Assembly: GCF_002909375.1 (NCBI RefSeq)
Contig: NZ_PPXD01000026.1
Coordinates: forward strand, 124,001-188,000
Direction of reading: 5' to 3'
Length of the DNA stretch: 64,000 bases
Source: Cryobacterium zongtaii
Lineage (GTDB): Bacteria > Actinomycetota > Actinomycetes > Actinomycetales > Microbacteriaceae
The notes under the pieces were generated by a model, which was not told where the DNA came from, did no database searches, and saw nothing but the letters and a program-made list of their open reading frames with translations. Of this stretch, positions 11,439 to 64,000 are shown in pieces (the first letter of the stretch is position 1; every line of letters starts with the position of its first letter). A program made the translations under genes and the position numbers.

Positions 11439-12635
11439 TCAGGCGGCGGGGGCGACCGACGGCTCCAGGCCGTTGCGGCGGGCGACCTCGCCGAGCCAGC
11501 TGGCGCTGGGCTTGGGGGTACGCGCGAAGGTCTGCTTGTCCCAGCCGATCAGGCCGAAGGTCGGTGCGAAGCCGGAGGCCCACTCGTAGTTGTCCAGCGC
11601 TGACCAGTGCAGGTAGCCGAGCAGGTCGATGCCGTCCTCGATGCAGGAGTGCAGCCCCTCGAGGGCGCCCTGCGTGTAGGCAATGCGGCGGCTGTCGTCC
11701 TGGGTGGCGATGCCGTTCTCGGTGACCATCACGGGAACGTGGTCGGTCAGCTCCCAGGCGGCGCGCACCCCGATACCGGCGGCCGGCGGGAAGAACTCCC
11801 AGCCGGTGAGGGTGGTTTCCACGCCCTGGGCGACGGGCCGGGGACCCTCGGGTCCGATGAAGGTGCGGGTGTACGCCTGCACGCCCACGAAGTCGTCACC
11901 CTTCACGTTCTCCAGGTACCAGTCCTCGCGCGGGTGGCCGTACTCCACGAGCTTCTCCGCTGCGCCCTCCTCGTCCACGGCCACGAAGGCCTGGGTGGCG
12001 ACGGTCCAGCCCGTCTTGAGGTGCGGTACCTGGCTGAGCACCTCGCGGGAGCGCTGGTGCGAGAGCAGCAGGGCATCCGCCACCTGCAGGTCAGGGTTGG
12101 CGAGGCCGTGCGCCACCAGGTTGGCGGCGTCCTCTCCGCCGGCGAGCATCGCGGCGATATTGGGCTCGTTGATGGTGCAGACGTAGTTGACGCCCTCGGC
12201 CACGACGGGCAGGGCGAGCTCGGTGTACCGGGCGAACAGGTCGGCGGCATCGGGAGCCCGCCAGAAGCCGTCGTTCTCGAACCAGCGCGGCACCGTGAAG
12301 TGCATCAGGGTCACGACCGGCTCGATGCCGAACTCGTGGCAGGTATCGACCATCCGGCGGTAGTGGTCCACGGCCGATCGGGACGCGAAACCGCGCTCCG
12401 GCTCGATGCGGGACCACTCGATGCTGAACCGGTAGGAATCCAGGCCCAGGTCGGCGAGCAGCTTGATGTCCTCGCGGTAGCGGTGGAAGCTGTCGGCGGC
12501 GTCACCGGACGGTTCGACCATGGTGGTGCCCTCGGCGTGTTCCTTGGGCCACCAGTTGCTGTTGACGTTGTTGCCCTCGATCTGGTGGGCGGCGGTCGCG
12601 GCGCCCCAGAGGAAGCCTTGGGGGAAAGTGAGCAT
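11439..12635 (-). CDS. GH1-family beta-glucosidase
   Basis: A 398-residue glycoside hydrolase family 1 enzyme, somewhat shorter than the usual 440-480. It begins with FPQGFLWGAATAAHQIEG, keeps the acid/base Glu157 in TINEP and the nucleophile Glu306 in VTENG, and has LHWSALDNYEWASGF near the end. Cytoplasmic, no signal peptide. It is the last gene of the LacI-controlled transport operon, so it should cleave imported beta-glucosides or oligosaccharides. It has HF rather than HW at the usual His-Trp (residues 112-113), which may alter aglycone preference. Confidence 0.9.
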   Translation of the reverse strand: MLTFPQGFLWGAATAAHQIEGNNVNSNWWPKEHAEGTTMVEPSGDAADSFHRYREDIKLLADLGLDSYRFSIEWSRIEPERGFASRSAVDHYRRMVDTCHEFGIEPVVTLMHFTVPRWFENDGFWRAPDAADLFARYTELALPVVAEGVNYVCTINEPNIAAMLAGGEDAANLVAHGLANPDLQVADALLLSHQRSREVLSQVPHLKTGWTVATQAFVAVDEEGAAEKLVEYGHPREDWYLENVKGDDFVGVQAYTRTFIGPEGPRPVAQGVETTLTGWEFFPPAAGIGVRAAWELTDHVPVMVTENGIATQDDSRRIAYTQGALEGLHSCIEDGIDLLGYLHWSALDNYEWASGFAPTFGLIGWDKQTFARTPKPSASWLGEVARRNGLEPSVAPAA

Positions 12636-60933: not shown

Positions 60934-61818
60934 TTAGAAGGTGCTGCCCATCGCGTGCAGTCGCTCGATGCGCTCGGTCAGTGGCGGGTGGGTGGCGAAG
61001 AGCTTGTCCATCACGCCGGGTTTGAGCGGGTCGGCGATCCACAGGTGCGCCATCGAGGTGTTCTGCTTGCGCATCGGGCGGCCGTACTCGCCCAGCTTGG
61101 CCAGGGCGCTGGCCAGGGCATCCGGCTGACGGGTGGTCAGGGCGCCGGTGGCATCCGCCAGGTACTCGCGCTGCCGCGACACGGCCAGTTGCACGACCGA
61201 GGCAATCAGCGGGGCCACGATCATGGCGACCAGGCCGAACACCAGCACGATCGGGTTGCCGTTGTTGTTGTTACCGCGGCCGAAGAACGCCATTCGCAGG
61301 AAGATGTCGGAGATGAAACCGACGGCCACGACCAGGCCGAACACGATCATCGAGACGCGGATGTCGTAGTTGCGCACGTGCCCGATCTCGTGGGCCATGA
61401 CGCCCTCCAGTTCGGCGTCGTCCATGATGTCGAGCAGACCGGTGGTGGCGGCCACGATGGCGTGTTTGGGGTCCCGGCCGGTGGCGAAGGCGTTGGGCGC
61501 CGGGTCGTTGATGATGTACACCTCGGGCATCGGCGTGCCCGTGGTGATCGACAGGTTCTCCACGATGCGCCAGAGCCGGGGGTGATCGGTGACGCTGTTC
61601 ACCCGGATGCCCCCGCTCATGGCGATCGACTGCCGACCGGCCGCGAAGTACTGGATCAGCGCGTAACCGCCGGCGATCACCAGGGTGAGGATGAGCACGC
61701 CGGGACCCTGTACGCCGTAGGCAAGACCGGCAAGCCAGCCGAGCCCGGAGATGATCACCACGAACAGCACAATGATGAAGACGGTGTTGCGCTTGTTACG
61801 CGCGATCGCGCTGTACAT
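60934..61818 (-). CDS. htpX: M48 metalloprotease HtpX
   Basis: A 294-residue membrane metalloprotease: zinc motif MAHEIGHVRNYD, N-terminal helices over residues 10-50, and two further helices after the active site. It clears damaged membrane proteins. Follows lemA by 36 bp; lemA-htpX is a known pairing. Confidence 0.94.
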   Translation of the reverse strand: MYSAIARNKRNTVFIIVLFVVIISGLGWLAGLAYGVQGPGVLILTLVIAGGYALIQYFAAGRQSIAMSGGIRVNSVTDHPRLWRIVENLSITTGTPMPEVYIINDPAPNAFATGRDPKHAIVAATTGLLDIMDDAELEGVMAHEIGHVRNYDIRVSMIVFGLVVAVGFISDIFLRMAFFGRGNNNNGNPIVLVFGLVAMIVAPLIASVVQLAVSRQREYLADATGALTTRQPDALASALAKLGEYGRPMRKQNTSMAHLWIADPLKPGVMDKLFATHPPLTERIERLHAMGSTF

Positions 61819-61854: not shown

Positions 61855-62421
61855 CTAGAACTGCACGCGAGGCGGTTCGGCGATGGCCGCGGAGTCGCTG
61901 ACCTCGAAGAACTCGCGCTGGCTGAAGCCGAGGTTTTTCGCGAACAGGTGGTTCGGGAAGACCTGGATCTTGGTGTTCAGCTCGCGCACGCCACCGTTGT
62001 AGAACCGGCGGGAGGCCTGGATCTTGTCTTCGGTGTCGACCAGCTCGCCCTGCAACTGCAGGTAGTTCTGGCTGGCCTGCAGCTGCGGGTACGCCTCGGC
62101 GACCGCGAAGATGCTCTTCAGGGCCGTCTGCATGTGGTTCTCGGCCGCGGCGGCGTCCACCGGGCCCTGCGCGGAGAGAGTCTCGGCGCGCGCCTTGGTC
62201 ACGTTCTCGAAAACCGACTTCTCGTGAGCCGCGTAGCCCTTGACGGTTTCGATCAGATTGGGGATGAGGTCGGCACGGCGCTTGAGCTGCACAGTGATGT
62301 CGCTCCACGCTTCATCCACCCGCACCTTGAGGGTGATGAGCGAGTTGTAGGTCGCCCACAGGTAGATACCCGCGATCGCAACGAGTGCGACGACGATGAG
62401 GACCGGGATGAGCCATTCCAT
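61855..62421 (-). CDS. lemA: LemA family protein
   Basis: A 188-residue protein: N-terminal helix (VLIVVALVAIAGIYLWATYNSLI), then LemA helices with VDEAWSDITVQLKRRADLIPNLIETVKGYAAHEKSVFENVTKARAE. Often found with htpX, as here; envelope-associated, precise role unknown. Confidence 0.92.
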   Translation of the reverse strand: MEWLIPVLIVVALVAIAGIYLWATYNSLITLKVRVDEAWSDITVQLKRRADLIPNLIETVKGYAAHEKSVFENVTKARAETLSAQGPVDAAAAENHMQTALKSIFAVAEAYPQLQASQNYLQLQGELVDTEDKIQASRRFYNGGVRELNTKIQVFPNHLFAKNLGFSQREFFEVSDSAAIAEPPRVQF

Positions 62422-62536
62422 GGCAGCGTCTCCTTGCGATTTGACCTGGGCGATACGTGTTCGAGCCCCATCATAACGAAGCCCGCTGGGGCTCCCATGT
62501 GCTTCCCATCACACTCCAAGGAATCATCCCGCCCGG

Positions 62537-62603
62537 GTCCGCGAAGTGTGAGAAAAGCACCCATCCGGGCCGGTTTTCGGGGCTTGTCTCACACCTCGCG
62601 AAC
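62537..62603. repeat. 67-bp imperfect palindrome after the GH1-like gene
   Basis: Arms 62537-62553 and 62587-62603 pair at 15 of 17 positions, with an inner AAGC/GCTT. It ends next to the stop codon of the GH1-like gene. No T-run follows, so it is more palindromic element than standard terminator; sequence is unlike the 68-bp repeat. Confidence 0.7.
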
Positions 62604-64000
62604 CTATCTTGCGCTGAGGACTTCCTGGAGCCAGCGGTAGGAGAGTTTGGGGGTGCGCTTCCGGGCGGGGTCGGTGAAGTCCACGTGGACCAGGCCGAAG
62701 CGTTGGGTGTAGCCGGCCGCCCATTCGAAGCCGTCCAGCAGCGACCAGATCAGGTAGCCGCGAAGGTCAACCCCCTCGGCCGGTCCGCCGGGCGCGACGG
62801 CGTCCACGGCCGCCACGAGGTGCTCGGCCAGGTAGTCGATGCGGGCCAGGTCGGTCACCGCGCCACGGACATCCGCTGTGTCGGGATAGCTCGCGCCACC
62901 CGCGGTGAGGTAGACCGGCGGCAGGGCCTCGCCGTAGCGGTCCTGCAATTCGGCCAGCAGCACCGGCAGGTACTCGGGTGCGTTCGGCCAGCCGAACCCG
63001 GTGACCGGATGCTCGCGGAACTCGGTCAGGTGGAACGGCAACCGGCTGCTCATCGGGCGTTCCTCAGCGGGACGGTCCTCGGGCGCGCGTACCGGTTTGG
63101 CCGCTCCGGCCGCCACCCGGCTGGGCTGGAAGTACTCCACGCCGTAGAAGTCCAGCGGCTGGTGGATCGTGCGCAGGTCGTCGGGTTCGATCTCGTGCAG
63201 GTAGCGCAGCTCGTTCTCGAACACCCCGACGGGGTCTGGGTAGCGGCCGAGCAGCACCGGATCGGCGAAGAGCCGGTTGCGCAGCAGGTCGTAGAGGGCC
63301 GCGGCGTCGCGGTCGGCCTCCCGGTCGGTGGCGCTCTGCACCGGCGAGTGCACATTGGCGAGGCCGATCCCGCCGCGCACGTCGGCGGCGCGCAGCCCCT
63401 GCACGGCGAGGCCGTGACCGAGCAGCTGGTGGTGGCCGGCCGGTAACGCGTCGAACAAGAGGGCCTGGCCCGGGGCGTGCACGCCGATCATGTAGCCGTT
63501 GAACATCACCGTCGCCGGGTCGGCGATGGTGACCCACCGGTCGATGCGGTCGCCGAAGACCGCACCCATCTCGTGGGCGTAATCGCCGAATCTCATCGCG
63601 GTGTCACGGTTCAGCCAGCCGCCACGGAGCGCAGCGGGGGTGTCCCAGTGCGACAGGGTTGCCATCGGGCTGATGCCGTTGCCGAGCAGCTGATCGAGCA
63701 GCCTGTCGTAGAACGCCAGACCCGACCGGTTCAGCGTCCCACGACCGTCGGGTTGCAGGCGCGGCCAGGCGAAGGAGAACCGATAGCTGTCTGCGCCCAA
63801 CTCCCGCAGCAGGGTGACGTCCTCGGTCAGCTTGCCGATGTGGTCGGCGGCGACCGACGCGTTCTGGCCGTCCAGGATGCGGCCGGGCTCGCGGGTGAAG
63901 GCATCCCAATGGGATTCGCCGCGGCCGCCGTCACGCGCGCCGCCTTCGATCTGGAAGGCCGAGGTGGCCGTGCCTATCTGAAAACCGGTGGGGAGCCGAT
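62604..64000 (-). CDS. GH1-family protein lacking both catalytic glutamates (partial)
   Basis: A GH1 homologue, open to the window end and missing only a few N-terminal residues (it runs RLPTGFQIGTATSAFQIEGG...). The fold is well kept: TLSHWDTPAALRGGW and IWSLLDGFEWAAGYTQRFGL. But the acid/base motif TINEP is TIADP (Asp codon 63521-63519), the NYY-type motif is GVEYF, and the nucleophile motif TENG is TAGG (Ala codon 62903-62901). It is probably inactive as a retaining glucosidase, or changed in function. Compare the intact GH1 at 11439-12635. Confidence 0.88.
   Translation of the reverse strand, partial: RLPTGFQIGTATSAFQIEGGARDGGRGESHWDAFTREPGRILDGQNASVAADHIGKLTEDVTLLRELGADSYRFSFAWPRLQPDGRGTLNRSGLAFYDRLLDQLLGNGISPMATLSHWDTPAALRGGWLNRDTAMRFGDYAHEMGAVFGDRIDRWVTIADPATVMFNGYMIGVHAPGQALLFDALPAGHHQLLGHGLAVQGLRAADVRGGIGLANVHSPVQSATDREADRDAAALYDLLRNRLFADPVLLGRYPDPVGVFENELRYLHEIEPDDLRTIHQPLDFYGVEYFQPSRVAAGAAKPVRAPEDRPAEERPMSSRLPFHLTEFREHPVTGFGWPNAPEYLPVLLAELQDRYGEALPPVYLTAGGASYPDTADVRGAVTDLARIDYLAEHLVAAVDAVAPGGPAEGVDLRGYLIWSLLDGFEWAAGYTQRFGLVHVDFTDPARKRTPKLSYRWLQEVLSAR

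Follow-up and report, generated by a model that had tools for sequence, protein, structure and literature searches.

The GH1 gene at the end of the window, by which we mean the whole analysed stretch of 64,000 nucleotides of Cryobacterium zongtaii contig NZ_PPXD01000026.1, encodes a protein in which both catalytic glutamates are replaced. Its orthologs have lost the catalytic nucleophile repeatedly and remain under purifying selection. Judging from the residues that the active site has kept and lost, the window protein may well be a maintained, non-hydrolytic GH1 pseudo-glycosidase that is kept for binding, most likely still holding a glucose-like sugar.

The features on which this reading is based are listed below; positions are those of the window, and residue numbers follow what we take to be the Thermotoga maritima GH1 numbering.

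62604..64000, minus strand: putative GH1 pseudoenzyme gene, cut by the window edge (PF00232, 412.2 bits; TIGR03356, 445.1 bits).
63951..63953, minus strand: Gln20 (in FQIEG), kept, by alignment.
63645..63650, minus strand: His121-Trp122 pair (in SHWD), kept, by alignment.
63516..63530, minus strand: TIADP, which aligns with the NEP motif of solved GH1 enzymes; Asp stands in place of the acid/base Glu (63519-63521) and Ala in place of the preceding Asn (63522-63524).
63129..63137, minus strand: EYF instead of NYY, by alignment; Asn293 replaced by Glu and Tyr295 by Phe.
62895..62906, minus strand: TAGG, aligned to TENG of solved GH1 enzymes; nucleophile Glu replaced by Ala (62901-62903).
62718..62747, minus strand: WSLLDGFEWA, by alignment; Trp398, Glu405 and Trp406 kept, Asn403 replaced by Gly.
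61855..62421, minus strand: LemA-like gene, downstream, from position and neighbours; its only library match, MamQ, is below the cut-off, and the name LemA is presumptive.
60934..61818, minus strand: next neighbour after the LemA-like gene, from position and neighbours; presumably an M48 (HtpX-like) peptidase, from its HEIGH motif.

Within the window the GH1 frame is open and undamaged from 62604 to 63998 (464 codons, minus strand). In the genome the gene spans 62604-64058 and encodes 484 residues, its start (ATG at 6058-6056 of L039) lying 58 bases past the window edge and overlapping, as ATGA, the stop of the FAD-oxidase gene 5' of it. The Pfam match (PF00232; curated cut-off 22.6 bits) covers profile positions 3-449 of 453 and places the protein in the GH1 sequence family. 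The score against TIGR03356, the NCBIfam equivalog of GH1 beta-glucosidases, falls below the cut-off of 478.5 bits. The 484 residues hold a single GH1 domain and not the tandem KL1-KL2 arrangement of Klotho proper, and inspection by eye revealed no N-terminal signal or hydrophobic stretch. The closest solved chain in a PDB search is 8znv, for which a literature search found no describing paper; the second-best match is 8in1, a two-domain chain of 994 residues that we infer to be akuBGL. A second GH1 gene lies within the window at 11469-12629 (minus strand; L005/L008), with its TINEP and TENG motifs intact.

The equivalence of TIADP to NEP-type and of TAGG to TENG motifs was taken from alignment to the solved GH1 enzymes 8znv, 3w53 and 1gnx. 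Where a retaining GH1 enzyme has its nucleophile glutamate, in TE[NGS]G, the window protein has alanine, and where the acid/base glutamate stands in NEP it has aspartate, the latter change being conservative. The preliminary description, according to which both catalytic glutamates are replaced, is thus borne out. Its further claim of an intact -1 subsite is right for Trp398, Glu405, Trp406 and the His-Trp pair but not for Asn165, Asn293, Tyr295 and Asn403, each of which is replaced in addition to the glutamates. Trp337 and Phe335, presumably residues of the aglycone side, are both kept. Since the genomes of the four nearest species (L010-L013) likewise have Asp for the acid/base residue and Ala for the nucleophile, and parallel replacements occur in dozens of others, chance and sequencing or assembly error are excluded as explanations, their probability being negligible. 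The retaining mechanism of hydrolysis needs both glutamates, and the window protein is presumably unable to hydrolyse by it. The same requirement is stated in PMC10619976 and PMC10628560 (partial texts).

Some match to the window protein was found in 56 of the 57 Cryobacterium genomes, and 55 (not G044 and G056) keep an ortholog of at least 65% identity. The nucleophile glutamate is missing from 50 of these 55 orthologs, comprising 47 full-length rows and three split or frame-broken genes that were read piecewise. Full-length rows were available from 52 of the 55 genomes, and five of them (G004, G025, G053, G055 and G024) have both glutamates. In the three genes read piecewise, those of G002 and G016 (each split across contigs) and of G008 (frame broken, in a genome only 83% complete), SLG replaces EGG at the nucleophile. 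The GH1 match is split at the same place in four genomes, namely these three and G052. In G052 (L062, about 2000-2200) an in-frame, low-complexity insert of about 60 residues, rich in Gly, Ser, Arg and Pro, is found there, and His121-Trp122 has become Gln-Arg; at this site the contigs of G002 and G016 end and the frame of G008 is broken.

Beyond the genus, the family search gave matches at an E-value of 1e-120 or better in 60 of 299 genomes and 23 of 85 genera, and the order search in 28 of 297 genomes; in both, the best five candidates per genome were scored. Of the loci newly found by the order search, 17 in all, 16 have intact motifs (one of them from the same family); the remaining one, L167, was mis-parsed. 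In what is labelled here the operon clade, a part of the tree in which several rows are without the operon, 55 of 95 rows lack the nucleophile: the 47 from the genus and eight from outside it (G302, G207, G063, G256, G139, G251, G334 and G315). A further case, G644, came from the control search and lies outside the tree. The losses in G644 (L278) and G302 (L271) occur in two genera whose other parsed rows are intact. It should be noted that in G092 (L113, 4649-7433) the operon GH1 gene is tandemly duplicated, with intact glutamates in both copies.

Active GH1 orthologs from the Microbacteriaceae operon are about 54-66% identical to the window protein and have the same gene order; unlike the window protein, they and 8znv possess both glutamates, Tyr295 and Asn403. 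The shared gene order identifies the window gene as orthologous to the active operon enzyme rather than as an additional copy, and duplication of an active copy was ruled out as its source. The preliminary description had pictured one pseudoenzyme acting beside a true GH1 enzyme. Instead, the active enzyme's own ortholog was converted in place, and this happened repeatedly.

On a tree of 109 rows, from which the catalytic columns had been removed, the state of the nucleophile changes at least eight times, a count that does not separate loss from regain; all 14 outgroup rows are intact. A single origin of all 55 nucleophile-less rows is rejected (p-AU 5e-47), and six independent contrasts lie on well-supported branches. 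This is a 'quick' tree, which leaves forks within the genus open, and the position of L127 (G315), a long branch, is unsure. Columns filled in fewer than 30% of rows were dropped, in two rows (L016 and L019) an over-long envelope had added residues at the upstream end, and the half or broken genes L063-L067 were left out. A test of correlation by independent pairs could draw on only six supported ones, a number that leaves most columns short of significance.

Tyr295 and Asn403 are missing from all 55 nucleophile-less rows. Four intermediate rows (L021, L037, L038 and L092) have also lost them, together with Trp398, and have both glutamates; therefore, Tyr295 and Asn403 appear to have been lost before or with the nucleophile. 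What replaces the lost residues varies by lineage. Six residues occupy the nucleophile position (Ala in 23 rows, Leu in 17, Ser in 5, Val in 4, Gly in 4 and Thr in 2), at least seven different residues replace Tyr295, and the acid/base position is Glu in 30 of the 55 rows and Asp in 21. Arg repeatedly takes the place of Trp398, in 19 of 55 rows, without being universal. Convergence on one new pocket is thus unsupported.

Selection on the protein is strong. For seven nucleophile-less sets, one-ratio codon models gave dN/dS values of 0.046 (the window protein and its four nearest relatives), 0.044, 0.048, 0.057, 0.058, 0.036 and 0.085; two larger sets that contain some of the smaller gave 0.071 (clade A) and 0.057. 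The sets overlap (win5 lies inside clA11), and two two-row sets yielded no value. Six sets with both glutamates gave 0.031-0.063, the lowest value being from a set in the outgroup and the highest from one that holds an intermediate row, and a set of 15 active orthologs, all from a single other genus, gave 0.053. The nucleophile-less range, 0.036-0.085, therefore overlaps the intact range and extends slightly above it, the slightly raised values being those of clade A and of the g8 trio (0.085). The neighbouring FAD oxidase shows 0.033-0.080 in ten sets. By rough figures, neutral evolution would have produced about 41 stop mutations in the window set and about 144 in a clade of 17 genomes described below (with kappa set to 3.0 for the latter); their 5 and 17 frames contain none. 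The protein is a GH1 domain that has lost its catalytic glutamates and is maintained by selection, which makes it a probable GH1 pseudoenzyme, Klotho-like in kind. Conservation across the genus and the low dN/dS lend strong support to the earlier view of an undamaged frame, with decay unlikely and a role other than hydrolysis, and the isolated decaying copy that it had named as the contrary outcome is not what the homologue survey and the dN/dS values reveal.

The constraint has shifted within the protein: the active-site core, which falls roughly within the slowest-evolving tenth of positions in active relatives, has become fast-evolving, and the remainder is still constrained. Six core positions (Asn165, Glu166, Asn293, Tyr295, Glu351 and Asn403) have a mean rate percentile of 10.6 in the 15 active orthologs of the other genus, and of 83.3, 75.8 and 78.4 in three nucleophile-less Cryobacterium clades. 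For nine positions of the sugar and aglycone shell the mean percentile rises less, from 30.9 in the active orthologs to 52.4, 61.6 and 50.1 in the same three clades. In the control rates L273 is cut short and L271, which has lost the nucleophile, is left out; sites that appear 'decelerated' may reflect narrower sampling. Trp337 is replaced in 89% and Phe335 in 87% of nucleophile-less rows, and Asn165 drifts inside one clade.

Other residues of the pocket are nearly invariant among the 55 nucleophile-less rows: Gln20, His121 and Glu405 are each kept in 54 and Trp406 in all 55, with Trp122 kept in 47 and Trp398 in 34. Glu405 and Trp406, which we take to serve O4 and O6 of the sugar, are not demanded by the fold, because the phospho-type paralog of the same genome (L003) has Ser and Ala at positions 405 and 406. 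In a 6-P-beta-glucosidase, Gln and His bind O3 and O4 and Asn binds O2 (PMC3605045, partial text), and a Streptomyces GH1 enzyme makes -1 contacts through Gln, His, Asn and Tyr, among other residues (PMC12369401, partial text). The retention of Gln20, His121, Glu405 and Trp406 against the loss of the Asn and Tyr residues therefore indicates that the glycone site has lost its C1/C2 side and preserved the other.

On the 5' side of the GH1 gene lie a gene for an FAD-linked sugar-lactone oxidase, matched by TIGR01679 and PF04030, one for a PLP-type enzyme with the alanine racemase N-terminal domain (PF01168), and one for a TetR regulator. Among 60 fetched neighbourhoods, the PLP, FAD and GH1 genes occur together in 37, FAD and GH1 only in 4, and GH1 with neither partner in 19 (one cut by a contig end), 13 of which (L115-L127) belong mostly to the more distant, active outgroup. 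Matches to LemA and M48 both lie near GH1 in 41 of the 60. In L139 and L154 an apparent ABC-transporter pair, recognized by eye, stands in opposite direction between GH1 and LemA; positions 62422-62603 of the window hold no such pair, the LemA-like gene coming directly after GH1.

Across the 57 genomes, an FAD-oxidase match at E 1e-40 is present in 41 (with only 33-35% identity in G048 and G035) and the PLP gene at E 1e-60 in 32; six genomes (G012, G022, G023, G026, G033 and G047) have the ortholog and the FAD gene without the PLP gene. In a clade of 17 genomes (L041-L043, L045, L047-L057, L059 and L060) the PLP gene is absent, the FAD gene is absent beside GH1, and a close FAD homolog is absent from the whole genome (no match in 15, only 33-35% identity in 2). 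The GH1 gene is kept there at a dN/dS of 0.058, and its role in this clade is therefore independent of both partners. The idea that the protein depends on the FAD oxidase or on the PLP enzyme is accordingly weakened.

The history that best fits these data would start from a conventional beta-glucosidase, intracellular and encoded in a Microbacteriaceae operon of PLP enzyme, FAD sugar-lactone oxidase and GH1. Catalysis would have become dispensable in Cryobacterium and, in separate events, in a few further genera; residues around C1 and C2 of the sugar would then have been lost, first Tyr295 and Asn403 and later the nucleophile, along with Asn165 and the acid/base residue, and the protein would have been retained for a second, binding-type job. 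A glucose-like sugar might be held by its O3/O4/O6 side through Gln20, His121, Glu405 and Trp406 and be reported or buffered, uncleaved, which would be a regulatory use; alternatively, the liganded barrel could be presented to a partner, again without cleavage. The half-site that survives suggests a ligand rich in hydroxyl groups, for example glucose, and the retention of its four residues favours sugar binding, with the proviso that a structural role is possible for Gln20 and His121. Drift in the remainder of the pocket suggests protein contacts and favours a role in which not all of the pocket takes part. This drift outside the four kept residues is seen in most lineages and would count against a pure sugar sensor, whose pocket should resist it.

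It is conceivable, but in our opinion less likely, that the pocket is not used at all and that an ancestral, surface-borne protein-protein function, as a chaperone or regulatory subunit, alone is now selected. The pocket does drift in an otherwise constrained protein, the gene overlaps the FAD-oxidase gene through ATGA, and a precedent exists in akuBGL GH1D1, which has an Asp acid/base residue, showed no hydrolysis and has been proposed to be a chaperone (PMC10619976, partial text). Such a scaffold, however, leaves the near invariance of Glu405, Trp406, Gln20 and His121 unaccounted for, and the operon partners are gone from the whole 17-genome clade that keeps the gene. Altered or residual catalysis, with a different reaction such as transglycosylation or nucleophile-free chemistry relying on the Asp acid/base residue or on some other group, is unlikely. 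It would suit the acid/base position, still Glu or Asp in nearly all rows, and GH1 mutants with an alanine nucleophile can act as glycosynthases with activated donors; against it, the varied substitutions at the nucleophile and at Tyr295 show no shared new site, and even Asn165 drifts inside one clade.

A myrosinase-like, ascorbate-assisted mechanism, considered in view of the neighbouring sugar-lactone oxidase, is not favoured: myrosinases keep the nucleophile, which the window protein lacks, and the oxidase has proved dispensable. That the gene is on its way out and has been caught early is very improbable. The catalytic positions are relaxed, as this would predict, and the frame of G008 (the 83% complete genome) is broken at the low-complexity insert that also interrupts the contigs of G002 and G016, but the dN/dS values across many species contradict it and the frames of the 47 full-length nucleophile-less rows of the genus are open. 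Maintenance for binding, with a sugar still held, remains our preferred reading.

Pseudoglycosidases as such are known. The KL1 and KL2 domains of alpha- and beta-Klotho are, like the window protein, GH1 folds without a catalytic Glu that are kept for binding; beta-Klotho has Asn241 and Ala889 at the catalytic Glu positions, and a peptide mimics a glucoside in its KL2 pocket (PMC10628560 and PMC7828330, partial texts). The Klothos, however, are animal co-receptors with tandem domains, whereas the window protein is a single bacterial domain that arose repeatedly from an active ortholog. In akuBGL GH1D1 of Aplysia (compare the first domain of CjCEL1A) the acid/base Glu is changed to Asp, as in the window protein, and the recombinant domain is inactive; unlike the window protein, it is fused to an active GH1 domain, keeps the nucleophile and is missing the glycone-binding site (PMC10619976, partial text). 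YKL-39 and other chitinase-like GH18 pseudoglycosidases are likewise glycosidases turned glycan-binding (PMC7828330, partial text), although they differ in family, fold history and animal origin and their ligand has been demonstrated. The beetle GH28 pseudoenzymes are glycoside hydrolases that have no activity and are of importance to the beetle (PMC6549527, partial text); they belong to an expanded, duplicated insect family, in contrast to an ortholog converted in place. Among the literature matches listed, in which subscription journals are largely missing, there was no bacterial, single-domain, recurrently arising GH1 pseudoenzyme. A term search of the available part of the pseudoenzyme review PMC10211241 found no mention of glycosidases.

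Pseudoenzymes are often explained by duplication and the release of one copy. Here, an ortholog loses catalysis repeatedly under strong purifying selection, and the intact rows, four intermediates and dead rows form a natural series of replicates in close bacteria, which makes a non-catalytic role of a glycosidase fold directly testable. Dozens of such genes may be annotated as beta-glucosidases. We tentatively suggest that the GH1 protein of the Microbacteriaceae operon is a two-function protein, a beta-glucosidase with a hidden binding function, and that the latter is what selection truly protects. If this is true, the recurrent loss of catalysis has exposed the second function, and the protein would be a counterpart of Klotho in the bacterial cytoplasm, with a glycosidase barrel that has become a receptor.
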